Source: Spirochaetota bacterium (GTDB lineage Bacteria > Spirochaetota > UBA4802 > UB4802). Taken from it: a stretch of DNA of 64,000 bases. Of this stretch, positions 24,984 to 48,498 are shown piece by piece. Within the stretch, counting starts at the first letter, position 1. Every line of letters begins with the position of its first letter. The stretch covers positions 1-64,000 of the forward strand of contig JBFLZD010000004.1 of assembly GCA_040756435.1 (NCBI GenBank), read 5' to 3'. Under the pieces are notes generated by a model. That model saw only the letters and a list, made by a program, of their open reading frames with translations. It searched no databases and had not been told where the DNA came from. The position numbers and the translations under genes are program-made.

Positions 24984-25496
24984 TTAAGGAATTATTGTTG
25001 TTAATTTTTTATAAAACACAAGTTTATCATCACCATCAGCATAAAAATCCTTAAATACTGCGCTAATAGTGTATCCAGCTTTCAGATAGAATGAATGTGT
25101 GGGTTCATACTGTTTTCTGCCAGAGGTTTCTATATAAAAATGTTTACCATCATGCCTTACTGTTTTTTCTTCTGCTTTTGACAGCAATGAATATCCAATA
25201 CCGTTACCCTGGAAATCAGGATGCACCGCAATCCAGTACACATCCCATGAGGCTTTGGTCAATGGTATTTTACCGTAGCATATATATCCAACGACAGTAG
25301 TTTGGTATTCAGCAAAAATAAATTCATAACTTGAGCTATCAGGATAGTTTATTTTTTCGTTAATGAGTTCTAGCGCAATATCCACCTCTTCGGGATAAAA
25401 AAAACCGGTTGCGTCAAGAATTGATACTATTGCCTCACAATCGGTATGAATTGGGTAATCCCTGTACTGAATTTGGTTTTTAATTAAATGCTTCAT
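24984..25496 (-). CDS. GNAT-family N-acetyltransferase
   Basis: The 170-residue protein has the acetyl-CoA-binding motif A 'IAVHPDFQGNGIGYSLL' and a typical GNAT C-terminus ('SFYLKAGYTISAVFKDFY'). The start at 25496 overlaps the upstream ATP-grasp gene by 17 bp; a longer frame to 25550 would add an unrelated hydrophobic leader. As the last gene behind a lysine 2,3-aminomutase homologue it could acetylate beta-lysine or a beta-lysyl conjugate, comparable to AblB, which is larger. That substrate is inferred from context. Confidence 0.8.
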   Translation of the reverse strand: MKHLIKNQIQYRDYPIHTDCEAIVSILDATGFFYPEEVDIALELINEKINYPDSSSYEFIFAEYQTTVVGYICYGKIPLTKASWDVYWIAVHPDFQGNGIGYSLLSKAEEKTVRHDGKHFYIETSGRKQYEPTHSFYLKAGYTISAVFKDFYADGDDKLVFYKKLTTIIP

Positions 25497-26487
25497 CTGC
25501 TTCACATATATATTTTTTTGAAATAACAGGATGTTTAATAATAATATCAAGTGCCTGAGAAAAGCTTAAACCGTATTCCCTGACTGCGGCCATAAATCCG
25601 CTGTAAATTGATATGCAGGGGTTAGCGTTAACTTCAAGCACAAAGACTTCATTGTTTTTGACCCTGAAATCAATGCGTGCATAGCCATTTAATTTGAAGA
25701 TATCCCATAATTGTAATGATATTCTGTCAATTTCATCCAGTATTGGCCTGTCTTCCTGGGTAAATGAAAAGCTTCGGTTTGTATTTTCGTAGGCAAATGA
25801 GTCATGAACCCATTTTGCTTCATAATCTACAATTTTATACTTATCAGGGGGATAATTATCAAAATGAATTTCGGCATGAGGAAGTATCTGCACTCCATCA
25901 TCGGTTAAAAGAAGTGAAATATTAAACTCCCTTCCATCAATATATTCCTCGGCAAATAGATTGGGTGAAGAAACAAGCTTTTCTTTTAGAGTATTGAAAT
26001 CACTGCGGGATTGTACCTGAACAATTGAATCCTGGGTAATATTAATGGATGCATGCGTATTATATGGTTTGATAATATAAATGCCATTCAGGGTTTCATG
26101 ATACTCACTGTCACCGGTAATATATGAAGGGGTTGGAATACCATGTTGCATCATGAGTTTTTTACTTTCAAGCTTGTGGCAACTTAGTGCAATGGCATGT
26201 GAACCTGAACCGGTAAACGGAATGCCATACTGCTCAAGCATAAAAGGGGCTAAAAACATCAGGTCGTCACGCCCAAACAAACTTTCACACAGATTAAATA
26301 CAATGCACCTGCTTTGTAAAAGCTCCTGCAATGACAAAAGGTCTAAATGTGATTGTATTGCACGGGAACCTACTGTGTAACCCATCTGGATAAAAATTTC
26401 AGCAAGTTCATCTCGCTGCTCCAGTACATCCTTTTCATCCAACGGAGCATTATCAGGTACATACTGGTGAATAAAGATTATCTCCAT
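25480..26487 (-). CDS. ATP-grasp ligase, D-Ala-D-Ala ligase-like (second of two)
   Basis: A 335-residue ATP-grasp protein. Visible are an N-terminal domain with 'FNLCESLFGRDDLMFLAPFMLEQYGIPFTGS'-type features (short pieces 'FNLCESLFG', 'YGIPFTGSGS'), the ATP-grasp 'FAEEYIDGREFNIS', and the Mg-binding 'ARIDFRVKN' and 'VLEVNANPCIS'. The family joins a carboxylate to an amine at the cost of ATP. The start at 26487 gives 'MEIIFIHQYVP'; a start at 26526 is possible. It lies 108 bp after its paralogue, with an inverted repeat (ACACACC/GGTGTGT) in the gap. Confidence 0.8.
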   Translation of the reverse strand: MEIIFIHQYVPDNAPLDEKDVLEQRDELAEIFIQMGYTVGSRAIQSHLDLLSLQELLQSRCIVFNLCESLFGRDDLMFLAPFMLEQYGIPFTGSGSHAIALSCHKLESKKLMMQHGIPTPSYITGDSEYHETLNGIYIIKPYNTHASINITQDSIVQVQSRSDFNTLKEKLVSSPNLFAEEYIDGREFNISLLLTDDGVQILPHAEIHFDNYPPDKYKIVDYEAKWVHDSFAYENTNRSFSFTQEDRPILDEIDRISLQLWDIFKLNGYARIDFRVKNNEVFVLEVNANPCISIYSGFMAAVREYGLSFSQALDIIIKHPVISKKYICEADEAFN

Positions 26488-26595
26488 GATGCCAACTTTA
26501 TTAAAGTTTAATGTATAATTACACACCAGTGACTCAGGGTGGGTGTGTTACACTGTCTGATACAAATTTTTTATGTTATTGTATTTGTGCAACTA

Positions 26596-27630
26596 TTATT
26601 TTATGATAAATGAAGATAATTTTTTGGGAGCATTACCTATCAGATAGTAGCGTGTTAATGCATTATGCATGATGGTTGCAATTAACTGCTGATATGATAT
26701 GTTAACTTTAGAGCATATTATTGGGAGGTCGGAGTGTGTGGGGTGAAGCCCAGCAAGGGGGTTTACTTCAAGAAAATGTGGATTGCCGGAACTATCGCAC
26801 TTAATGTCCACCCGCCCTGCATCACGGCAGCCTAATGCTTTCCATGCCTCAAGTGCAACATGGGCTGACTTTTGTGCTGCGGTATCATCTACAAGCCTGT
26901 ATTCCACACGTTCTTCACATCGTTCCTTATTGATGAAGGAATACACATCCTTTTCGGCATTATCCAGTAAAATGATTTCTATAGTTCCGATAGCTTTAGC
27001 AGTATTGCCGCTACCAACTATCCCCACAGTAAATTCTCTTCCGGGGAGGTATTCTTCTACCAGAACTGGCTGTTTATACTTTTCAAGCAATAGTATACAG
27101 GTTGATTCAAGCTCACCGGCATCACGGATAACTGAAGCAGCAGTAATGCCTTTTCCGGTTCCCTCAGCGTATGGTTTTGCAAATAATGGGTAGGTAAGGG
27201 AACAGCGTTTTATGTCTTCAATACCGGTAACAAGCACAAATGGGGGTGTGGGGATATTACTGTCGCGTACTATCTGTTTTGTCATGGCTTTGTTCAAGGT
27301 AAGTGCCAGCACCAGTGGATCGGAAAAGGTGTAGGGTATGGCGTATGCATCCAGCAGTGCGGGGATCTGGGCTTCACGGCCAATACCGTGCATTCCTTCA
27401 GCTATATTGAATACTATATCCCAGCGTTGACCACTGGCAAGGCGTGAAACAAGATGTTTGATGTGGCCAATTCTTTCAGTGGTAAAACCTAATTGCTGCA
27501 GCGTGGTATCAATAGCATTAATAGTTTCTATACTATCAAATTCCGCAATAGTTTCATCATCATAACCCATTGCCCGGTAATCGTCGCGTAAGTCATAGGT
27601 AATGCCAACACGCATGGCTTTGCTGATCAT
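26596..27630 (-). CDS. ATP-grasp ligase, D-Ala-D-Ala ligase-like (first of two)
   Basis: A 344-residue ATP-grasp protein with 'FNIAEGMHGIGREAQIPALLDAYAIPYTFSD' character (short pieces 'FNIAEGMHGIGREAQ', 'PYTFSDPLVLALTLNK'), the grasp segment 'VEEYLPGREFTVGIVG', and the metal-binding 'GRVDIKCD' and 'LEVNPLAGLHPTHSDLP'. A genuine Ddl is encoded elsewhere in the window (50231), so this protein and its paralogue probably serve another pathway. Its start overlaps the kamA stop in an ATGA, so the two are translationally coupled. Confidence 0.82.
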   Translation of the reverse strand: MISKAMRVGITYDLRDDYRAMGYDDETIAEFDSIETINAIDTTLQQLGFTTERIGHIKHLVSRLASGQRWDIVFNIAEGMHGIGREAQIPALLDAYAIPYTFSDPLVLALTLNKAMTKQIVRDSNIPTPPFVLVTGIEDIKRCSLTYPLFAKPYAEGTGKGITAASVIRDAGELESTCILLLEKYKQPVLVEEYLPGREFTVGIVGSGNTAKAIGTIEIILLDNAEKDVYSFINKERCEERVEYRLVDDTAAQKSAHVALEAWKALGCRDAGRVDIKCDSSGNPHFLEVNPLAGLHPTHSDLPIICSKVNISYQQLIATIMHNALTRYYLIGNAPKKLSSFIIK

Positions 27631-28895
27631 GTTGTTTCAGGATAGTAGAAATATTTATGTTCGTAGTTTTTAAGAATAACACTATTCCCGTCCATACCCT
27701 GATAGTAGGTGGGTAACAATGGTACCTTGCCTCCGCCTCCCGGTGCATCTATGACATAGTGAGGAACTGCAAGCCCTGTTGTATGACCACGCAGCCCTTC
27801 AATCATTTCAAGACCTTTAGCAACTGAAGTGCGAAAATGCTGCGAACCTACTATGGGGTCACATTGATACAGATAATAGGGGCGTACCCTGCATTGCAAA
27901 AGCAGATGGTAAAGTTTTTTCAGTGTTTCAACATTATCATTAATGCCTTTAAGGAGCACTGTCTGGCTGCCCAGTGGTATACCTGCATTTGCAAGCCTGT
28001 TACATGCTTTCATGGTTTCAGGTGTTATCTCATCGGGATGGGTGAAATGGATGTTTATCCATAATGGATGATATTTTCGTAACATGCTTACCAGTGAATG
28101 GGTGATGCGCTGTGGCAATACCGCTGGAACTTTAGTGCCAATACGGATAATCTCAACATGTGGGATTGCTCTAAGACGGCTAAGAAGGTACTCTACCATG
28201 GATTCATTCATTGTCAGTGGGTCACCGCCAGAAATAAGAACATCCCTGATTTGGGTATGTTCAGCAATATAGCGTAATGCTGTATCCCAGTTTTTACCTG
28301 GTAGTGTACAATTTGATCGTCCAACGATGCGTGAGCGTGTGCAGTACCGACAATACGTTGAGCAAAAATCGGTTGCTAAAAACAAAACTCTATCGGGATA
28401 GCGATGCACCAATCCCGGGACCGGACTGTCGTCATCTTCTGAAAGGGGGTCTTCAGATTCGCCATGATTATGTTCCAGTTCATGTATTGTTGGAACTACA
28501 CAGCGGCGAATTGGGTCATTGGGGTTATTGCGGTCAATGAGGCTGGCATAATATGGTGTTATTGACATGGGCAACTGCGTATGACTGATTAATGCATTCT
28601 TTTCACTTTCAGTAAGTTCAAGAATTGCAGATAATTCTTCATAGGTACGTATTCTGTGAGCAATCTGCCACCGCCAGTCATTCCATTGCGAATCAATAAT
28701 ATCGGGATAAAAAAGTTTTCTGAAAATCTTTGTTTTATTGCTGGTGGTAGGTTTATGAACAACATGCCGTGAAGGCAGGATTGTTATCACATTTGATTGT
28801 GCATTACACGCCGAGGGAGGCTCATCAGTATTTGAGGTGGAAAAATCCGGAGGCTCCTGTGTTTCTGTATTTTGCAGTGATTCAATTGCTTCCAT
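27627..28895 (-). CDS. kamA: Lysine 2,3-aminomutase (radical SAM, PLP)
   Basis: Interconverts L-alpha-lysine and L-beta-lysine. The 422-residue protein has the radical-SAM cluster motif C178-x3-C182-x2-C185 ('CSTYCRYC'). Its C-terminus has 'YQCDPIVG' (D346) and 'IDAPGGGGK' (D383, K390). These positions match the two substrate-binding aspartates and the PLP lysine of clostridial KamA, including the 7-residue Asp-to-Lys spacing, which favours lysine over glutamate or EF-P lysine substrates. An N-terminal Ser/Thr/Pro-rich stretch of ~50 residues is unusual. It leads an operon with two ATP-grasp ligases and a GNAT enzyme. Confidence 0.85.
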   Translation of the reverse strand: MEAIESLQNTETQEPPDFSTSNTDEPPSACNAQSNVITILPSRHVVHKPTTSNKTKIFRKLFYPDIIDSQWNDWRWQIAHRIRTYEELSAILELTESEKNALISHTQLPMSITPYYASLIDRNNPNDPIRRCVVPTIHELEHNHGESEDPLSEDDDSPVPGLVHRYPDRVLFLATDFCSTYCRYCTRSRIVGRSNCTLPGKNWDTALRYIAEHTQIRDVLISGGDPLTMNESMVEYLLSRLRAIPHVEIIRIGTKVPAVLPQRITHSLVSMLRKYHPLWINIHFTHPDEITPETMKACNRLANAGIPLGSQTVLLKGINDNVETLKKLYHLLLQCRVRPYYLYQCDPIVGSQHFRTSVAKGLEMIEGLRGHTTGLAVPHYVIDAPGGGGKVPLLPTYYQGMDGNSVILKNYEHKYFYYPETT

Positions 28896-39049: not shown

Positions 39050-40204
39050 TTATAGAGTTTTTATAACTTTCACTATCCCTTTTACAATTTGCAACGCTAT
39101 TGATTCGGTTATTGTTAATGCCGGTCGTATAATGATTGTATCGCGGGCTACTTTTCCGGTTGTTGTAAAAATTCCTTCTTTCATAAGTTTTGTAACAGCT
39201 TTCTGTGCCACCTGGCTACTGCGCAATGTAACAGCAATAGCAAGTCCCATTCCGTGAACCGATAGGATTTTTCCCGGATATTGTTTTTGCAAGGCAGTAA
39301 GTTCTACCAGAAGCTTTTGACCAATATTGCCAGCATTTTCCCATGGTTTTGTTTTTTCGTATAACTCAAGTGCTTCATAGGCAACCCTGCATCCTAAATC
39401 ATGTCCGCCAAACGTTGAAAGATGGATAAGTGGATGCTGATTCATAAACTTCTGAACTTTCTTTGTAAATGCTGTTGCTGCAATGGGGAATATGCCAGCA
39501 CCCAGTGCTTCACCAATAACCAGAATATCAGGTTCAACACCATAATGTTCAAAGGCAAATTTTTTACCGGTGCGGCCCATACCGGTTTGTGTTTCATCAA
39601 GTATCATGAGTGCGCCTGTTTTGTTGCACACGGTACGCATAATCTTAAAAAAGCCTTCACTGGCACTGCGGCATGCATTTTCTACCTGTATTGTCTCGGT
39701 GATAACGGCGGCGGTTTTTGTTGTTATTCTTTCTTCCAGTGCCTGTATGTTGCCAAACGGGATAGTGGCAATATCAGGTATCTGTCCAAAGGTTTTCTTT
39801 TTATCGCCATCCGACAGTGAAACAGAAAAACCAGTTTCACCGTAATAGGCACCATCCACAGTTACAAGCTGTGTACGTCCAGTAAACCCACGAGCCAGTT
39901 TACAGGCAAAATCCATGGCCTCACCACGGCCTGCTGAAAAGAATACACCGTTGAGTTTGGCTGGAATAAATGAAATAAGCTTTGCAGCTAAAAGCGCCTT
40001 TTCCTGTGATATTAACACAAAATTGCCCTGATCGCTTTTATCTGCCTGCTCCTGTAATGTGTTCGATAGTTCCCGAACATGTCGACCCAGGTTGAACATA
40101 CCCGCACCACAGTAGCAGTCAATATAACGCTTGCCTTTTATATCATAGAAAAAGTCATTATTGCGTTTTCCTTCAACAATTGTATATAATGATTGCAAAT
40201 CCAT
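39050..40204 (-). CDS. Class III aminotransferase paralogue lacking the PLP lysine
   Basis: A 384-residue member of the class III aminotransferase fold. The 'LMILDETQTGMGRTGKKFAF' segment keeps the PLP-ring aspartate (D203). Where active enzymes have 'tlaKalggG' this protein reads 'VIGEALGAG', with Glu232 in place of the Schiff-base lysine; the codon is GAA in the genomic DNA. The protein is therefore unlikely to be a normal transaminase on its own. It starts 1 bp after the stop of the intact paralogue upstream, so the pair may form a heteromer. The reading frame is complete with no sign of decay. Confidence 0.8.
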   Translation of the reverse strand: MDLQSLYTIVEGKRNNDFFYDIKGKRYIDCYCGAGMFNLGRHVRELSNTLQEQADKSDQGNFVLISQEKALLAAKLISFIPAKLNGVFFSAGRGEAMDFACKLARGFTGRTQLVTVDGAYYGETGFSVSLSDGDKKKTFGQIPDIATIPFGNIQALEERITTKTAAVITETIQVENACRSASEGFFKIMRTVCNKTGALMILDETQTGMGRTGKKFAFEHYGVEPDILVIGEALGAGIFPIAATAFTKKVQKFMNQHPLIHLSTFGGHDLGCRVAYEALELYEKTKPWENAGNIGQKLLVELTALQKQYPGKILSVHGMGLAIAVTLRSSQVAQKAVTKLMKEGIFTTTGKVARDTIIIRPALTITESIALQIVKGIVKVIKTL

Positions 40205-40205
40205 G

Positions 40206-41618
40206 TTATGCCTCCTTACTGTAATTTCTTTTTGTTATACCTAAGATATCCTCAAAGTAGCGTATACTATCAAACACAGCTATCTGCACATGGATATCAT
40301 CTAACAGTTTTTTAAGCAAAGGAATCTTTGATAATGGTTTGGTAAGTGGCATGTACATTCTCATGGTAACTATCGCTTTGCGTATAATATGTAACATCTT
40401 TTTTACTTCCTCTTCATTTATGGTGATGGGAACCATGAAGCGCATTACCTGCGGTTGATTGCCTGAGTATACGGCAAAGATGCCATGCCGTGCCAGTGAA
40501 TCGGCCATAAGTGCCCCCATGTATTCATGAGTATATTCAACGCCAATCATAAGGCCCCTGCCACGAATTTCTTTTATGATGTCAGGATTTTCATGCTGAA
40601 TGGAAAGCAGTCCTTCCATAATAATTTTACCCATTGATGCTGCGTTTTCCCACAGGCGGTTTTTAACAACATAGTCAATCACTGCAATACCAACAGCACA
40701 CCCAATATCACTTCCGCCGGTTATTGACTGGTGAAATTCCGGATTGCTTTTGACATACTGTGTAAGAAGCGGAATGTTGCGATACATTACCACAGCATTA
40801 GGAAAAAGCCCGCCGCTAATTGATTTGGCAAGCGTCATGATATCGGGTACCACGCCACTATGCTGGCTTGCAAACATCCTGCCGGTACGCCCAAAACCTG
40901 TTTGAATTTCATCAAAGATGAGCATGATGCCAAAATGGTTGCATATAGTTCGTAAGCCTTTCAAATAATAATCATCACCCACAAAGATACCACCTTCACC
41001 CTGAACGGGTTCAAGGATAATAGCAGCAGTATCAATACCAGCAACCTGTTTGACCTGCTCTAAGTCACCAAACTGGACAAAGACAAAATTGGGCTCTAAT
41101 GGTTCAAAAAGGTGGCGATAGTAATCTTTACCATTGGCTGACAGTGAATATCCGGTATGGCCATGATATGCTTTTTTCATTGCAATGATTTTCTTTCTTC
41201 CCGTTGCACCACGAGCTAACTTTATTGCACAATCGATTGCATCACCTCCACCAGAAGCAAAAATAACCTGATTGCAATCGCCTGGAGCAATTGAAGCTAA
41301 TTTTTTTATAAATTCTTTTTTAACGTTTGATGGTAAAAGGTTTGTGCCAATATCATATATTTGGAGTGCTTCCCGTAATGCTTTGATAATCTCAGGATTT
41401 CCTCTTCCCACATTGAAGCAGCCGGCTGATGTGAAGCAGTCAATGATCTTTCGCCCAAATAGTCCGTCAGTAAAACCAATACCTTTACGGCGAGTTTCAA
41501 TAAAATCTAAATGTGCCGCACGCATTGTTTTGGTTTGCCCTTTAGAAATGTGCCGTGAAAATAGGGAAAAGATGAGTTTTTTATCATTATCGGTGAGAGT
41601 ATCTTTCCATAAAGCCAT
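40206..41618 (-). CDS. Class III PLP-dependent aminotransferase
   Basis: A 470-residue aminotransferase with the full set of class III features: 'FASGGGDAIDCAIKLARG', 'YHGHTGYS', 'LEPVQGEGGIF', 'IFDEIQTGFGRTG' (D236) and the Schiff-base lysine K265 in 'TLAKSISGG'. Relatives use omega-amino acids, ornithine, acetylornithine or 4-aminobutyrate; the substrate cannot be fixed here. It is divergent from a TetR regulator, with a TetR-type operator (41641-41657) just before its start. Confidence 0.88.
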   Translation of the reverse strand: MALWKDTLTDNDKKLIFSLFSRHISKGQTKTMRAAHLDFIETRRKGIGFTDGLFGRKIIDCFTSAGCFNVGRGNPEIIKALREALQIYDIGTNLLPSNVKKEFIKKLASIAPGDCNQVIFASGGGDAIDCAIKLARGATGRKKIIAMKKAYHGHTGYSLSANGKDYYRHLFEPLEPNFVFVQFGDLEQVKQVAGIDTAAIILEPVQGEGGIFVGDDYYLKGLRTICNHFGIMLIFDEIQTGFGRTGRMFASQHSGVVPDIMTLAKSISGGLFPNAVVMYRNIPLLTQYVKSNPEFHQSITGGSDIGCAVGIAVIDYVVKNRLWENAASMGKIIMEGLLSIQHENPDIIKEIRGRGLMIGVEYTHEYMGALMADSLARHGIFAVYSGNQPQVMRFMVPITINEEEVKKMLHIIRKAIVTMRMYMPLTKPLSKIPLLKKLLDDIHVQIAVFDSIRYFEDILGITKRNYSKEA

Positions 41619-41640: not shown

Positions 41641-41657
41641 TTAGTTGGTTGACTAAC
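41641..41657. promoter_or_regulatory. TetR-type operator candidate
   Basis: TTAGTTGGTTGACTAAC contains the inverted half-sites TTAGT and ACTAA around a 6-bp centre, 23 bp upstream of the aminotransferase start and 130 bp from the tetR start. Position and symmetry fit repression of the aminotransferase operon by the adjacent regulator. Confidence 0.5.
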
Positions 41658-41785
41658 ATAAAATATTTATTTTGTCAATAAATTAATATTGACTCACTGA
41701 AAATTTCTAAAACAATAGTATACTGATAAAAACGTGTACACTCTATGATAGTAACTAAAAAATATGACATGGGAATCATGGTATA

Positions 41786-42388
41786 ATGGGCAGACGCATT
41801 TTAAAAGACACACGCAGAGAAGAGATAGCACAGGCGTTATATCGCTGCCTGCTTAAAAAGCCGTTTGCACGAACAACAATAAAGGATATAGCACACGAAG
41901 CCAAACTTAACCACGGGATGCTGCATTACTATTTTAAAAATAAAGAAGAGATATTGCTGTATTTTTTAGATTGGATTGTTGCCTTGCATTTAGATGATTT
42001 CAAAAAATGGGCACAAAAGCAAAAACTTGGAGCACGAAATTTCAATGAAGCGCTGTCACTGGCGCTTGATTATGCAAAGAATAAAATTACATTGAATGAA
42101 GAATTGGCAAAAATATTCATTGAAGTGTGGGAAATAGCCCTGTATCATAAAAAAGTGCGTATCAAACTACAGTATGTATATAAAGAGTGGATTGAGCAAC
42201 TTGTTGCTATCATAGGGAAAGAAACAACTAAAAAAAATGCAACAACGCTCTCAGTTGCAACCATAGCTTTTCTTGAAGGCATTTCTTTGTTTCATATAAT
42301 GCTGTCCGATATATATCCCGTTAAGGATATACTGAACTCATTTGAAAAGAAGATTGAAGGGGTAATAAACAACAGAAACATACAGTAG
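41786..42388 (+). CDS. TetR family transcriptional regulator
   Basis: A 200-residue regulator with an N-terminal helix-turn-helix ('TTIKDIAHEAKLNHGMLHYYF', residues ~29-50) typical of TetR proteins and a helical ligand-binding domain. It is divergent from the two aminotransferases and probably controls them; the inducer is unknown. The stop is followed by a hairpin. The start ATG has only a weak upstream GGGAAT. Confidence 0.88.
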   Translation: MGRRILKDTRREEIAQALYRCLLKKPFARTTIKDIAHEAKLNHGMLHYYFKNKEEILLYFLDWIVALHLDDFKKWAQKQKLGARNFNEALSLALDYAKNKITLNEELAKIFIEVWEIALYHKKVRIKLQYVYKEWIEQLVAIIGKETTKKNATTLSVATIAFLEGISLFHIMLSDIYPVKDILNSFEKKIEGVINNRNIQ

Positions 42389-42425: not shown

Positions 42426-43430
42426 TTAAAGCTTAACCTGTTTTTTGTGTACCGAAGCTGTTTGCAAGCTATTTGCATATGCAGCCGTCAATGATACAAT
42501 ATTCGTTATATTGATTGCCCCTCTTCGGGCAAGTTGTAATAAAATTTGAGTACCTTTCTTTTCATTGCCATTGAGATGTACTAACATAATACTGCCAGCC
42601 ACAGGCTTTTTGCCCTTTGCAAGCCATGCATCTGAACCTAACGGAATAAGCCCGTATCCCATTACCTTTTCATATATTGTTTGGTTGGAGATAAGTCCCG
42701 GAAATCTAAAAAATACAGAAGGGATAATATCGTGTTCCAGCATGCAGATCTCGTTCTGGAAAACTTCGCGTGCCACACTGGTATCTTCTTTCAGCATAAA
42801 GTTTTTCCGCAGCGGAAGTTTTCGCGAATAAAAATGAGTAAAGCTGTGATTTGCCCAGGTGATGTCAAGCTTATGATCTGAAGCTAAACTTTGTAACCAC
42901 CTAAGATCTTCTGGATGGGTGAGTATCCATTTTCCGCTGATACATATTGTAACGGGTAAAGGGGAAATTTTGTTCAGAGCAATCAGCTGTTCAATGAACT
43001 CAGCATCAATGGAGCGTTTTGATGGACACAGGTCAAAGCTTAAAATCATCCCCTGTGTATCAACATGGGTTATGCCTGCGTTAAACATACGTTTAGATTT
43101 TTGCAATGCTTTTTGATACAATTGTGCATATGGTGTATCAGCACATTGTTGAATAATAGTGTGAAAAGAATTTTGCTGTATGATGCCTTTAGGGTTTTTA
43201 AGTATGCCCGTGCGCAATGTATATGGATGTATATACAGGTAAGCCTGTATGGAATTATATTTAAATCTTCGTATAATTATATAACGGGTAGTTTTGTTTT
43301 GCAATTCAGTATAGAGAGCATAATACGGCATATATGCACTAATTTTGGGATATGATTGTTCGATAGTTACCGGAAAGATAATTATTGCCAGCATACAATA
43401 CATGCTATGTTTATAAAGCCATTGTTTCAT
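42426..43430 (-). CDS. Polysaccharide deacetylase-like protein, exported
   Basis: A 334-residue NodB-homology protein with an N-terminal hydrophobic signal/anchor (about 8-24). The catalytic motifs are altered but recognisable: motif 1 is 'LSFDLCPS' (normally tFDDGP), motif 2 'HSFTHFYS' keeps the HxxxH metal ligands, and motif 3 is 'FFRFPG'. The second Asp of motif 1 is Leu, so metal binding may differ. It probably acts on a cell-envelope or secreted polysaccharide. Confidence 0.7.
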   Translation of the reverse strand: MKQWLYKHSMYCMLAIIIFPVTIEQSYPKISAYMPYYALYTELQNKTTRYIIIRRFKYNSIQAYLYIHPYTLRTGILKNPKGIIQQNSFHTIIQQCADTPYAQLYQKALQKSKRMFNAGITHVDTQGMILSFDLCPSKRSIDAEFIEQLIALNKISPLPVTICISGKWILTHPEDLRWLQSLASDHKLDITWANHSFTHFYSRKLPLRKNFMLKEDTSVAREVFQNEICMLEHDIIPSVFFRFPGLISNQTIYEKVMGYGLIPLGSDAWLAKGKKPVAGSIMLVHLNGNEKKGTQILLQLARRGAINITNIVSLTAAYANSLQTASVHKKQVKL

Positions 43431-43616: not shown

Positions 43617-44492
43617 TCAATTGAATATTTTTGCATAGCCGTTTGATAAAACGCGCCCCTGGTTGCCGTGGACCTCAAAAAAGAGGTTAGCACCACTTCC
43701 ATAATCTTCCCGGTGTAAAAGCAGTACACGGATGTCTGCTGGTGGAATCACCATGCCAGTAAATCTACAGGAAAGTTCCTTCAAGAGTTGTGGATTGCCC
43801 GCAGCTTCATTATTGGTAAGTTCACGTGCAGCAAATGCAAGCGTAGCTGTGCCCTGGAGGATGATATCTGGCAGCCCAACCATTCGAGCAAAGCCAACAG
43901 ACGTGTGGATTGGGAAGTGGATGTTGGTGCACCCATCATAGATGAATGGTTGCATACGGTCAATGTGTATAACTTTCTCCCATTGTGCACTTGCTACACC
44001 ACTAAATGGTGGCACCAGGGGTAAATCTTCTTTTCCACGGGAATTGCCTATACACTCCACACCGCGCATCATGCCACCAATATGCTCGGTGAAGACAGCC
44101 TTACCATCCTGATCTATGGCATCAAAGCGGATAACCACTACAGTACCCGCTCGATGCGGCATTATGGCTGCAATGCGCCCCTTTATGGTAAGTCTATCAC
44201 CGGCACGTATTGGCCTGTGGAAGATAAGGTGCTCGGTATAATGAACCTGGGTCTTGATGATATCAACAGGAAAGTTTTTGTCTTCAATGTACTCCCATAT
44301 ACGCTCGGAGATTGGCCATGTTAGCGCTACTGCAAACATGGGCGGCGCAATAACAGTTTTCCCCCCATCATCATCAAAATATACAGGATTGGCATCATTG
44401 ACTGCTGCAGCATAATTCATTGTTGCACGCCAGGTAACGGTTGTGGTGTAATCCTTAAGCGGTGTTCCCACAAACGATGAATCAATTTTCAT
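43617..44492 (-). CDS. MaoC-like double hot-dog dehydratase/hydratase
   Basis: A 291-residue protein made of two hot-dog domains. The N-terminal half starts 'KIDSSFVGTPLKDYTTTVTW' and resembles the FAS1-type/MaoC N domain ('YAAAVNDANPVYFDDD'); the C-terminal half has 'HFPIHTSVGFARMVGLPDII'-like hydratase features. Such proteins hydrate enoyl thioesters. The start at 44492 is chosen because AGGGAG lies 7 bp upstream. A longer open frame to 44726 runs through a repeat element and is not believable coding sequence. There is no obvious promoter between gene and repeat. Confidence 0.75.
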   Translation of the reverse strand: MKIDSSFVGTPLKDYTTTVTWRATMNYAAAVNDANPVYFDDDGGKTVIAPPMFAVALTWPISERIWEYIEDKNFPVDIIKTQVHYTEHLIFHRPIRAGDRLTIKGRIAAIMPHRAGTVVVIRFDAIDQDGKAVFTEHIGGMMRGVECIGNSRGKEDLPLVPPFSGVASAQWEKVIHIDRMQPFIYDGCTNIHFPIHTSVGFARMVGLPDIILQGTATLAFAARELTNNEAAGNPQLLKELSCRFTGMVIPPADIRVLLLHREDYGSGANLFFEVHGNQGRVLSNGYAKIFN

Positions 44493-44510
44493 ATTCATTC
44501 TCCCTTGTGT

Positions 44511-44700
44511 GAGGTGTCTTAAAAGGTATCTCTTTGCAATGATTTTTTCCCTCCTGTCATTGCGAGGAGCCTCTTTGGCTACGAAGCAATCGCGTCTTTC
44601 ATTATTTGGGATTGCTTCACTTCGACAAGTGGTTGCTGAGCTCGTCGAAGCACTCAGTGCAAGCACTTCGTTCGCAATGACATCAGGGAGGTATGGAATA
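44511..44700. repeat. Interspersed MITE/REP-like element, copy 3 (inverse, one end truncated)
   Basis: The reverse complement of this stretch matches copy 1 closely ('ccatacctccctgatgtcattgcg', then 'gtgcttgcactgagtgcttcg', quoted in part) and ends 'aagacacctcac'. Its other end lacks the GGGTGTCCC terminus, so it is truncated. It lies 7 bp upstream of the MaoC-like gene's ribosome-binding site. From 44701 to 44992 I see no gene or clear signal. Confidence 0.75.
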
Positions 44701-44992
44701 TGCTGCCATCCATACTCCTGAAGCAACCGAAATTTTTTGTATAACCGTTGCTCACGTTCCTCAATGCAGGCAAATAGTGCTTATAGTAAATCCAATACTG
44801 CACCAGAAATCTCTTAGTGGAGTTTTCATAATTCATCGAGTTTTATGGGACATACTATATACCATGTCTATAAAAATTAATACCATTTTTTTTGTTTTTA
44901 AAAAATGCTGACTGGTTACAAAAAGGTTATTGACGTTTTTAATGCTTTCTTTATAAATAATATAATTCAATAAGATAATGAATTGAGAACTA

Positions 44993-45331
44993 ATGTACCA
45001 AATCAGTATTACAAAGGCCAATTTGAACGAGATTAGTGTTTCTTTTCATTATAATTCAACACATGTAGAAAGTGGAATAGATCTGAGATACATACAAAAG
45101 TTGTTGGGTCATAAAAGTACTAAGACAGCAGAGATATATACTCTTGTTAGCAATAGTGTTTTAGGTAAAATAAAAAATCCGTTGGATACGATATTAAATC
45201 CAGACGTAAAGATAAATGAGGTTCAGGCAAAAGAAGGTATAGACGACGTAAATGTAAGATATAATGACAAAATGGTAGGATACACGACAGTAATGTCGTA
45301 TATGAACACGTTATATGCAATTGCAGGCTAA
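44993..45331 (+). pseudogene. Remnant of a tyrosine recombinase/integrase C-terminus
   Basis: The frame contains 'ESGIDLRYIQKLLGHKSTKT' followed by 'AEIYTLVS' and 'GKIKNPLD', the end of the catalytic domain of tyrosine recombinases, with the last His and the nucleophilic Tyr. Just before it, the expected HxLRHSFATHLLE box reads 'FHYNSTHV', so the HxxR arginine is gone, and everything N-terminal is missing. It precedes four cassettes and points the same way. It may be a dead integron integrase, but the fragment is too short to tell IntI from XerC/D-type enzymes. Confidence 0.7.
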
Positions 45332-45353
45332 ATTGATATAAGGAACATCCATT

Positions 45354-45944
45354 ATGACAACAAAAATAACAAAGCTTAAAAACAATGAGTGGTATCAACT
45401 AAAAATTAGTCTTAATGATATTAAACCTTTAATATGGAGGAGATTCATTGTTGATTCACAAATTAAACTTCCTGATTTACATAAAGTGATTCAAACTGTA
45501 ATGGGTTGGACGAATTCTCATTTACATCAATTTATTAAAGATGGTAAATTTTATTCTGAACCCGACGAAGAATCATTCATTGAATGTATTGATTATAGAA
45601 AAATAAAATTAAATCAAATACTACAAAAAGAAAAACAATCATTTATATACGAATATGATTTTGGAGATGGTTGGGAACATAAAATTGTTTTAGAAAAAAT
45701 TATTAAGGGTAACATTTATAAGCATCCATTATGCATAGATGGTCAAAGGAGTTGTCCACCTGAAGATTGTGGTGGTCCGTATGGCTACCAAGATTTACTT
45801 AAAATTATTTCTAATCCAAATAATGACGAATATGATGAAATGATGGAATGGCTTGGTAACGATTTTGATCCTGAACACTTTGACATAGAGCTAATAAATG
45901 AGCGGTTGAAAAGAAAAAATTATGGTTTAATCACCTTTGACTGA
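45354..45944 (+). CDS. Plasmid pRiA4b ORF-3 family protein (cassette 1)
   Basis: A 196-residue protein with the family pattern 'LKISLNDIKPLIWRRF', 'DLHKVIQTVMGWTNSHLHQF', 'YEYDFGDGWEHKIVLE' and 'CPPEDCGGPYGYQDLL'. The family is widespread in mobile DNA and of unknown function. It is the first cassette: one gene on the + strand followed by an attC-like site. It is more A/T-rich than neighbouring housekeeping genes, consistent with transfer. Confidence 0.82.
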   Translation: MTTKITKLKNNEWYQLKISLNDIKPLIWRRFIVDSQIKLPDLHKVIQTVMGWTNSHLHQFIKDGKFYSEPDEESFIECIDYRKIKLNQILQKEKQSFIYEYDFGDGWEHKIVLEKIIKGNIYKHPLCIDGQRSCPPEDCGGPYGYQDLLKIISNPNNDEYDEMMEWLGNDFDPEHFDIELINERLKRKNYGLITFD

Positions 45945-45958
45945 GACCGCCTGCAACA

Positions 45959-46066
45959 GCCGATAACACGGGGTAAGCGATCGTTGCTATGCTCCTCGGG
46001 CTACGCCACATTTTCACCTCCGCTGCGCTACGGTAAAATGTCGCATACGCCGGGAACGTTAGCGGA
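45959..46066 (+). other. attC-like recombination site A
   Basis: Begins with CCGATAAC and ends with GTTAGCGG (46058-46065), complementary at 7 of 8 positions as expected for R'' and R'. Between them is an imperfect inverted repeat ('gccacattttcacc' against 'ggtaaaatgtcgc'), the stem that attC sites form as single strands. It lies directly after cassette gene 1. Confidence 0.65.
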
Positions 46067-46106
46067 AAGGTTTGAGCGAATAGGGAAAATTGTAGTGGTG
46101 ATTTAA

Positions 46107-46820
46107 GTGTTCAACCAAGAAGAACTTGATGAACTATACAAGGATATTCAGAACTGCCATATATGTCCCCAAATGGACAAAGAGAAATCATTACGTCTGG
46201 TGTGTGGTGTAAATTCTGAAGCCGATGTTTTTATTATTTCCCAGACGTTGGCGGCAAACCAGCTCAGGAAAAGCGGAGTGAATTTCTTTCAGGCAGATGG
46301 ACGTCTGGGCAAAACTGGTACTATTCTAGAACCGTTCCTCAACAAATTCCACCGGACTGTTTATCCCCAACAAAAAGTGACAATTACTGGTAATGTAACA
46401 ATTCCAAATTGTAACCCTAAGTATAAAGTAGTATACAACACAGAAATTGCGCAATGCTTTCCCGGCAAGAATAAAGGAGGCAAAGGCGATAGAAAACCAA
46501 CCAGCATTGAAATACGTAACTGTATTGATAAAGGATTTCTAATTAAAGAAATCACGATGATTAAACCGAAATTACTGTTGCTTATGGGAAAAGCAAGCCG
46601 TGATAGCTTCTTCGATTATGTCTTGAAGGCTAAGTATCCTCCTTCGCTCTCAGAACACATTTCAGAGATTATTCTGGCTGGGGAGATTCCTGTATTTTCT
46701 GTAGGCAATTTGAATCTACGTGTGTTACCTATTCAGCATGCGTCTGGGGTTAATCCACGTTTCCGCAGTATGATGGAGGACGATGGGCTAATAAAACTCA
46801 TCAAAGAGGTATTGGAATGA
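46107..46820 (+). CDS. Uracil-DNA glycosylase superfamily protein (cassette 2, gene 1)
   Basis: A 237-residue protein, GTG start. It has an N-terminal Cys pair ('NCHICPQM'), 'TGTILEPFL', 'YNTEIAQCFPGK', 'KPKLLLLMGKAS'-like central strand and 'PIQHASGVNPRF', which follow the layout of family 4/5-type uracil-DNA glycosylases (iron-sulfur cysteines, central motif, final His-Pro/Ser motif). The substitution pattern is divergent, so the actual substrate is uncertain. It overlaps the next gene by 4 bp. Confidence 0.65.
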   Translation: MFNQEELDELYKDIQNCHICPQMDKEKSLRLVCGVNSEADVFIISQTLAANQLRKSGVNFFQADGRLGKTGTILEPFLNKFHRTVYPQQKVTITGNVTIPNCNPKYKVVYNTEIAQCFPGKNKGGKGDRKPTSIEIRNCIDKGFLIKEITMIKPKLLLLMGKASRDSFFDYVLKAKYPPSLSEHISEIILAGEIPVFSVGNLNLRVLPIQHASGVNPRFRSMMEDDGLIKLIKEVLE

Positions 46821-47188
46821 CTGATTTGATTGATAGACAAAAACTGAATGATGCTTTACGTCAGATGGGTAGAAAATACCTGAAGCCCCAGTTCAGAGAC
46901 AAATGGACACAGGAGCGACCTACTACAGGCTACTGCTATGTAGTGGCTGAAGTAGTTTATCACTATATGGCACCAAAAGGAAGCCGCCCATATGTCATGA
47001 AAACTGGCGAAAATGAAACACATTGGTTCATTAAGGATCCCGAGGGTAGAATCATCGATCTGACCGCAGACCAATTTGACGAGCCAATAGATTACGCTAT
47101 AGGAAAACCACGGAACTTCTTAACAAAGAAAATTTCTAAACGCGGGAAAATGCTGGCCAATTTATTGGGGTTGAAGAAAAATGAATAA
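46817..47188 (+). CDS. Small protein of unknown function (cassette 2, gene 2)
   Basis: A 123-residue protein translationally coupled (ATGA) to the glycosylase-like gene. 'GYCYVVAEVVYHYMAP' followed by 'THWFIKDPEGRIIDLTADQF' gives a Cys-His-Asp arrangement like a small papain/transglutaminase-type fold, as seen in YunG-like proteins. I cannot assign a function. Two coupled genes in one cassette suggest they act together. Confidence 0.6.
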   Translation: MTDLIDRQKLNDALRQMGRKYLKPQFRDKWTQERPTTGYCYVVAEVVYHYMAPKGSRPYVMKTGENETHWFIKDPEGRIIDLTADQFDEPIDYAIGKPRNFLTKKISKRGKMLANLLGLKKNE

Positions 47189-47212
47189 TACGAGAATTAA
47201 TTCAAACCCTTC

Positions 47213-47296
47213 GCCTAACAGCAGACATACGGCAACGTTTAGCTCCGCCCAAATGCTCAACTGCGCCTTGCGCTTCGCATGTCCAAGTTGTTAGGC
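47213..47296 (+). other. attC site B
   Basis: The clearest attC of the array. GCCTAAC (47213-47219) and GTTAGGC (47290-47296) are perfectly complementary R'' and R' boxes. GACAT and ATGTC supply the inner L''/L' pairing, and the middle is an imperfect GC-rich inverted repeat. Total 84 nt, within the usual attC range. Confidence 0.85.
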
Positions 47297-47349
47297 AAAA
47301 GCCGGGAAAAATTTATTTTAAAGAAAATTGTTCTATTCATGAGGAGACA

Positions 47350-47556
47350 ATGAAAGATAATGTGGATGAACTAATATTAAAAATTGAAAAATTAATTGAT
47401 TTGCTTGATAAATTTCACATAGATTTTTGGTCCGCTTGTTTCAAAGAATCATTACGAATGATCAATAATCGTGATTTTCATGGAATAGAATTAATTCTAA
47501 GCTACTTTGGAGGAATGGGTTATACTGGCCCCGATTCTAACCGAGCACAGAATTAG
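47350..47556 (+). CDS. Small protein, probably truncated (cassette 3)
   Basis: A 68-residue product with a good GAGGAGA ribosome-binding site. 'FWSACFKESLRMINNRDFHG' and 'FGGMG' recall a family of small hypothetical proteins that normally continue past GGMG. Here the frame runs into the attC site and stops there, so the end may have been cut by cassette formation. Function unknown. Confidence 0.5.
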   Translation: MKDNVDELILKIEKLIDLLDKFHIDFWSACFKESLRMINNRDFHGIELILSYFGGMGYTGPDSNRAQN

Positions 47557-47632
47557 CATAAAAGGTTCGCCCTTCGGGCTCACCCAAATTTTTGCTTCGA
47601 AAAAACTTCTTTTATGCTGGAAACGTTATGTG
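47534..47632 (+). other. attC-like recombination site C
   Basis: AGCATAAAAG (47555-47564) has an inverse CTTTTATGCT (about 47609-47618), a 10-bp stem, and the right boundary is GTTATGTG (47625-47632). The left boundary is likely TTCTAAC (47535-47541), which is an imperfect match. It overlaps the end of the cassette 3 gene. Confidence 0.55.
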
Positions 47633-47688
47633 AAATTTTCGAACTTGACTTGTTTGCATGAAGTCTATTCCAAAAAAAGGAGATTTAT

Positions 47689-48498
47689 GTGAATAATACT
47701 GATTATGTACATGGATATACAGAAAGAGAATCAAATCGCCTGGAAGATCAAGCAAATTGTTTAAAGGAAATCATTCACCATGATACAATTTTTCCAAAAA
47801 ACTCAATAATCCTTGAAGCTGGTTGTGGTGTGGGAGCTCAAACGCAAATTGTTGCACCGATGAATCCGGATTCAAAATTTATTTCAATAGATATATCTGA
47901 AGATTCTATAAGAAAAGCCAAAGAGCTTATGAAACAACGAAAAATAAATAATGTAGAATTTCAAATGGGAAATATATTTAATCTACATTTTCCGGATGAA
48001 TATTTTGATCATATTTTCGTATGCTTTGTTCTTGAACATCTTCCAAATCCTATTGAGGCATTAAAATCTTTAAAAAGAGTTTTGAAAAAGGGTGGTACCA
48101 TTACATTAATCGAAGGTGATCACGGTTCTGCATATTTCTATCCAAATAGTTCTTTCGCTCAAAAAGTAATAAATATACAGGTTGAATTACAATCAAGAAG
48201 TGGAGGCAATGCTTTAATAGGAAGACAACTCTATCCTCTTCTGATTGAATTGAATTTTAAAAATTGCATTGTATCACCAAGAATGGTTTATGTCGACTCA
48301 AGTAAACCTGTTTTAGTAGAAGGTTTCATAAGAAATACTTTTATATCAATGATTGAAGGTATTAAGGAAAAAGCAATAAATAGTTTTTTAATTGATGAAG
48401 TATCTTTTGACCAAGGAATTAAAGATTTATATAGAACATCTCAAGCAGATGGCGTTTTTTGTTATACTTTTTTTAAAGGAATTGGATATAAAATTTAA
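47689..48498 (+). CDS. SAM-dependent methyltransferase (cassette 4)
   Basis: A 269-residue class I methyltransferase: 'ILEAGCGVGAQTQIVA' (SAM-binding motif I), 'FISIDIS' (acidic post-I), 'FDHIFVCFVLEHLPNPIEAL' and 'LKKGGTITLIEGDHG'. The substrate is unknown. The GTG start is preceded by AAAGGAGA at 6 bp. It is A/T-rich like the other cassettes. Confidence 0.8.
   Translation: MNNTDYVHGYTERESNRLEDQANCLKEIIHHDTIFPKNSIILEAGCGVGAQTQIVAPMNPDSKFISIDISEDSIRKAKELMKQRKINNVEFQMGNIFNLHFPDEYFDHIFVCFVLEHLPNPIEALKSLKRVLKKGGTITLIEGDHGSAYFYPNSSFAQKVINIQVELQSRSGGNALIGRQLYPLLIELNFKNCIVSPRMVYVDSSKPVLVEGFIRNTFISMIEGIKEKAINSFLIDEVSFDQGIKDLYRTSQADGVFCYTFFKGIGYKI

Follow-up and report, generated by a model that had tools for sequence, protein, structure and literature searches.

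Class III aminotransferases are a group of enzymes widely used in metabolism and biocatalysis. Partners that lack the catalytic lysine are known among the fold type I PLP enzymes; for class III aminotransferases none was found described, and the open-access literature yielded no description of a heterodimeric or lysine-less class III enzyme. The glycine decarboxylase GcvPA/GcvPB is a bacterial fold type I enzyme encoded by two genes, in which one of the homologous subunits is devoid of the lysine. GcvPA and GcvPB are listed as two subunits (PMC6522883). In serine palmitoyltransferase only LCB2 has the lysine, and a LCB1/LCB2 heterodimer with a single active site is the working hypothesis (PMC3794620). 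The nearest solved relatives of the proteins analyzed here are the putrescine aminotransferase PatA/YgjG (4uox) and Thermus LysJ (1vef), which have the same fold and belong to the same Pfam family (PF00202). In PatA, Lys300 is the Schiff-base lysine and PLP is also held by Asp271, and Thr151, Gly150 and the Thr332* of the other subunit bind its phosphate (PMC4244111). In the Tpa-Ald system of Bilophila, a class III aminotransferase is encoded together with an alanine dehydrogenase, by which the amino acceptor is restored (PMC6386719).

In this work we analyze a tandem pair of aminotransferase genes, alpha and beta, located in a 64,000-nucleotide stretch of Spirochaetota DNA (the whole stretch is hereafter the window). 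The initial annotation of this DNA had described two adjacent reading frames with a shared TetR operator, the second of them without the Schiff-base lysine, and had put forward a heteromeric enzyme, a regulatory pseudoenzyme or a new chemistry as possible explanations. Both reading frames were recovered intact on the minus strand (Table 1), with the alpha stop codon (TAA, 40206-40208) and the beta start codon (ATG, 40202-40204) separated by the single base 40205. The predicted products are paralogues with 32% identity across a 380-aa alignment (E 3e-69), and both score well above the PF00202 cut-off of 30.5 bits (alpha 292.1, beta 232.2). Aminotran_3 was the sole Pfam match, and neither product falls in the serine palmitoyltransferase/alpha-oxoamine synthase family. 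Scores with more specific models stayed far below the cut-offs, both for putrescine aminotransferase (NF008570: alpha 302.6, beta 239, cut-off 612) and for ArgD (TIGR00707: alpha 282.2, beta 234, cut-off 410). Since the ribosome-binding site of beta lies within the last codons of alpha, translation of the two genes is probably coupled.

Table 1. Coordinates of the alpha-beta gene pair, its diagnostic codons and its upstream regulatory features in the window
Feature	Position	Strand	Basis or remark
alpha gene, class III aminotransferase, 470 aa, K265 kept	40206..41618	-	ORF + PF00202
beta gene, class III aminotransferase fold, 384 aa, E232 in place of the catalytic Lys	39050..40204	-	ORF + PF00202
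alpha K265 codon (AAA), PatA Lys300 (Schiff base) column	40824..40826	-	alignment
beta E232 codon (GAA), PatA Lys300 column	39509..39511	-	alignment
alpha I299 codon, PatA Thr332* column	40722..40724	-	Thr gone in 15/15 alpha
beta T264 codon, PatA Thr332* column	39413..39415	-	Thr in 15/15 beta
beta R93 codon, PatA Gly150 column (own-subunit PLP-phosphate contact)	39926..39928	-	15/15 beta have Arg; 15/15 alpha have Gly
alpha C-terminal extension, residues 420-470	40209..40361	-	all alpha copies
beta ribosome-binding site AAGGAGG, within the final alpha codons	40211..40217	-	read in sequence
Divergent TetR-family regulator gene	41786..42388	+	homologue beside pair in 9/15 loci
Putative TetR operator TTAGTTGGTTGACTAAC, between tetR and alpha	41641..41657	.	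palindrome
Second palindrome GTCAATAAATTAATATTGAC, sharing bases with a TTGACA-like box 5' of alpha	41674..41693	.	

Profile searches with beta across 46 genomes of the order and 393 genomes of the phylum Spirochaetota identified 15 copies in 14 genomes, which belong to three families of a single order and include five genomes of the genus of the window. An alpha profile gave full matches (at least 797 bits) in the same 14 genomes, with the next best match at 510 bits. Beta lies directly downstream of alpha in every locus (15/15 loci, 14/14 genomes), and no beta without alpha was found among the 393 phylum genomes scanned. In trees computed after removing the tell-tale columns, the alpha sequences and the beta sequences each formed one clade with 100/100 support. 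All loci of named origin come from metagenome assemblies. Outside the phylum, a contig scan with beta that covered close relatives only matched Spirochaetota loci exclusively, and a plasmid search with beta gave no match above 34% identity; since the search beyond the phylum comprised only these two analyses, the true spread of the pair may be larger than the set found here. One genome (G037) carries two divergent alpha-beta pairs (L069 and L066), of which only L069 is adjoined by alanine dehydrogenase and tetR genes.

Alignment to PatA, the characterized class III enzyme, bore out the residue assignments of the initial annotation. In both blastp and phmmer alignments alpha K265 and beta E232 share the column of Lys300, and beta D203 corresponds to PatA D271, the aspartate that contacts the pyridine nitrogen. 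The substitution is fixed: Lys occupies this column in all alpha copies and Glu in all beta copies (15/15 each), the lysine being restored in none, even as beta identity to the window copy falls to about 45-50%. This rules out a lone mutation or a read error. A second lysine taking over the role, which the annotation had named as a possible objection, is likewise excluded, since the only lysines invariant in beta (K69 and K102) align away from the active-site lysine column. Within the genus of the window, dN/dS is 0.04-0.06 for alpha and 0.09-0.14 for beta, figures that are rough because several dS values are near saturation. Beta is thus an intact protein under purifying selection and not a decaying one. 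That beta might be a pseudogene in decay, or the product of misassembly, is a reading to which we assign practically no weight: it found no support, and the roughly twofold faster evolution of beta relative to alpha has to be set against intact frames in 15/15 loci from independent assemblies at about 50% divergence, a dN/dS of about 0.1 and an identical residue in every copy. Orthologues with an intact frame and a fixed Glu refute it.

The remaining active-site columns show a complementary pattern of loss. The Schiff-base lysine, the pyridine aspartate and the glutamine are present in every alpha copy (K265, D236 and Q239; 15/15), but the position of Thr332, the residue donated in PatA by the other subunit, holds no Thr in any of them (0/15; Ile in five, Phe in two, Tyr in four and Ser in four). 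Beta has Thr at this position in 15/15 copies, and in turn carries Arg in place of the phosphate-binding Gly150, which all alpha copies keep. Among 21 single-gene relatives, Lys and Gly150 are universal and Thr332 is found in 19, the other two (L093 and L094) having Ser. Across all class III reading frames in the loci fetched, Lys is absent only in beta and Thr/Ser332 only in alpha. A misaligned Thr column in alpha is excluded by the motif, which every copy shows set gap-free between an invariant His and a Gly, and the Thr332 prediction was recorded from the first six loci, before the remaining loci were fetched. Of 96 columns that do not vary among 12 near relatives, eight are wholly lost in alpha and sixteen are lost in beta; of the eight, Thr332 alone is present in every beta copy (15/15). 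The columns lost in beta and kept in all alpha copies comprise, among others, Lys300, Gly150, His181, Gly192, Ile246, Met390, Gly392 and Asn420. This pattern is what would be expected if only the pocket of alpha itself worked, with beta contributing to it across the interface.

We consider it quite probable that alpha and beta function only together, as a class III aminotransferase heterodimer in which just one of the two active sites works. Under this model, alpha would provide the PLP-binding lysine and its own-subunit pocket, and the Thr equivalent to beta T264 would reach across the dimer interface to hold the PLP phosphate. The corresponding site on the beta side would be dead, having Glu for Lys and Arg for the Gly of the phosphate loop and receiving no Thr from alpha; the Arg and Glu of beta could possibly form an ion pair that fills the vacant cofactor pocket. 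Among the three explanations offered in the initial annotation, the heteromeric enzyme appears the favoured one, given the fixation of the Lys-to-Glu change, the co-occurrence of the two genes and the complementary loss of residues. Counting against an obligate heterodimer, the Ser of four alpha copies and the Ser/Thr/Cys that alpha has one residue before the Thr332 column might bind the phosphate.

This last observation bears on a second reading, in which alpha is an active homodimer and beta is a pseudoenzyme that modulates alpha, or buffers PLP or a ligand, without completing its site. Alpha does have every own-subunit catalytic residue and is the slower evolving of the two, and the two complete relatives noted above tolerate Ser at the Thr332 position. 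The Ile, Phe or Tyr present at this column in 11/15 alpha copies is, however, seen in no other Lys-containing class III protein examined, and beta retains the Thr without exception, making an alpha homodimer, in our estimate, unlikely. A third reading takes beta as a separate homodimer with a Glu/Arg site for a new chemistry or ligand, having only the operon in common with alpha. In its favour, no beta copy departs from the invariant E232, R93, D203 and Q206, which speaks against simple drift of the pocket, and the complete fold is kept. Beta has nonetheless also lost its own-pocket residues at the R426, N420, G392 and H181 columns and never occurs without alpha, and a beta homodimer would leave the loss of Thr332 in alpha unexplained; we regard it as very improbable. 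The same four invariant residues could instead mark an altered pocket that works as a second site within the alpha-beta enzyme, for instance an allosteric site sensing a ligand or PLP and gating alpha. The dead beta site could carry such a second function, and the enzyme would then be both catalyst and sensor, but we see this as a rather doubtful addition to the heterodimer.

Structural predictions are consistent with beta being a complete class III subunit. The beta model (pLDDT 84.7, pTM 0.87) has PatA (4uox) as its best PDB match, with a TM-score of 0.90 at 30% identity, and is weakest at residues 1-7, 60-63 and 122-132. Beta also has an invariant loop, DQGNF (residues 58-62), a conceivable but speculative candidate for a further role in trans. 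The beta copies of the window genus are devoid of about 25-30 N-terminal residues found in other beta copies. For the pair, an AlphaFold2 prediction was obtained on a fused alpha-beta protein from locus L005, in which a single in-frame stop codon, read as Tyr, lies between otherwise continuous frames; with only eight helper rows aligned to the correct halves, it reached a pLDDT of 59 and a pTM of 0.44. As the fused prediction is uninformative, we infer the heterodimer from sequence, and likewise PLP occupancy and the reaction. The C-terminal tail of alpha extends 61-75 residues after PatA position 430 in all copies, versus 17-40 elsewhere, and the extension has no counterpart in beta or in the single-gene relatives. 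This moderately amphipathic stretch is conserved in all 15 alpha copies, and a role as an interaction or membrane-surface tail is possible.

The common TetR operator proposed in the initial annotation corresponds to a conserved palindromic site between tetR and alpha. The 3.6 Mb genome contains the exact TTAGTTGGTTGACTAAC pattern a single time, and related palindromes occupy the equivalent position in other families (TTAGTTAGTCAACTAACTAA in L070, TTAGTTAGTTAACTAACTAA in L069 and TTAGTTAGTTGACTAAC in L071); together, the single exact site and its relatives point to a dedicated local TetR regulator for the pair. The second palindrome, GTCAATAAATTAATATTGAC, is exact in three of the five genus genomes and near-exact in the other two. 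Given the probable translational coupling and a common TetR regulator, the two chains of the proposed heterodimer would be produced together.

Beyond the regulator, a NodB-type polysaccharide deacetylase-like gene with no Pfam match (42426-43430) is found beside tetR in four genus genomes. About 5.5 kb of extra genes (43617-48498) then separate the tetR neighbourhood from an aspartokinase gene, encoding a MaoC/FAS1-DH protein, an integrase scrap, a plasmid-type ORF, a uracil-DNA-glycosylase-like protein and a methyltransferase. In L072 and L073 the tetR neighbourhood directly adjoins aspartokinase, suggesting that the segment was inserted in the window genome. Elsewhere in the window, two adjacent ATP-grasp (D-Ala-D-Ala-ligase-like) genes (25480-28895) immediately follow a lysine 2,3-aminomutase-like radical SAM gene, forming an odd small cluster recognized only by reading the sequence.

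The gene context of the pair in other genomes offers a lead on its reaction. An alanine dehydrogenase is the first gene of the operon in 4/15 loci (L063, L069, L070 and L071), which follow the order tetR (divergent), alanine dehydrogenase, alpha and beta; none of these loci is in the genus of the window, where the window genome encodes an alanine dehydrogenase elsewhere, away from the pair. Of the four dehydrogenases, the three tested exceed the TIGR00518 cut-off. Because an aminotransferase co-encoded with alanine dehydrogenase usually denotes pyruvate as the acceptor, the association suggests, by analogy, amine:pyruvate transamination as the reaction of the pair. In two of these four loci an amidohydrolase gene lies 3' of beta. 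In a separate locus a zinc-binding alcohol dehydrogenase gene (L064:9168-10373) starts eight bases after beta, and would fit an aldehyde product.

Comparison with known systems places the pair apart from each of them. In PatA and LysJ, one gene gives rise to two equal active sites, whereas here the residues are split over two genes and neither set is complete: relative to PatA, alpha retains Lys300, Asp271, Gln274, Glu243 and Arg426, and beta retains Asp271, Gln274, Glu243 and Thr332. The division can be followed one position at a time: the cofactor contact that the partner would have to supply is gone from the catalytic subunit, and the lysine is gone from the partner. The pairing with alanine dehydrogenase in four loci is the same as in Tpa-Ald of Bilophila (PMC6386719), but Tpa is a single gene and the likeness does not imply taurine as a substrate of alpha and beta. 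GcvPA/GcvPB belongs to the glycine cleavage system family and not to class III, and differs in reaction and regulation. By analogy, the best mechanistic parallel is serine palmitoyltransferase, likewise a homologous pair with the PLP lysine in one subunit only, although it is a eukaryotic, membrane-bound fold type I enzyme of the alpha-oxoamine synthase family and the pair described here is encoded in a bacterial class III operon. Unlike serine palmitoyltransferase, the catalytic subunit has here also lost the trans-acting Thr, so that one Lys and one Thr on separate chains would provide a sharp test of the change from homodimer to obligate heterodimer.
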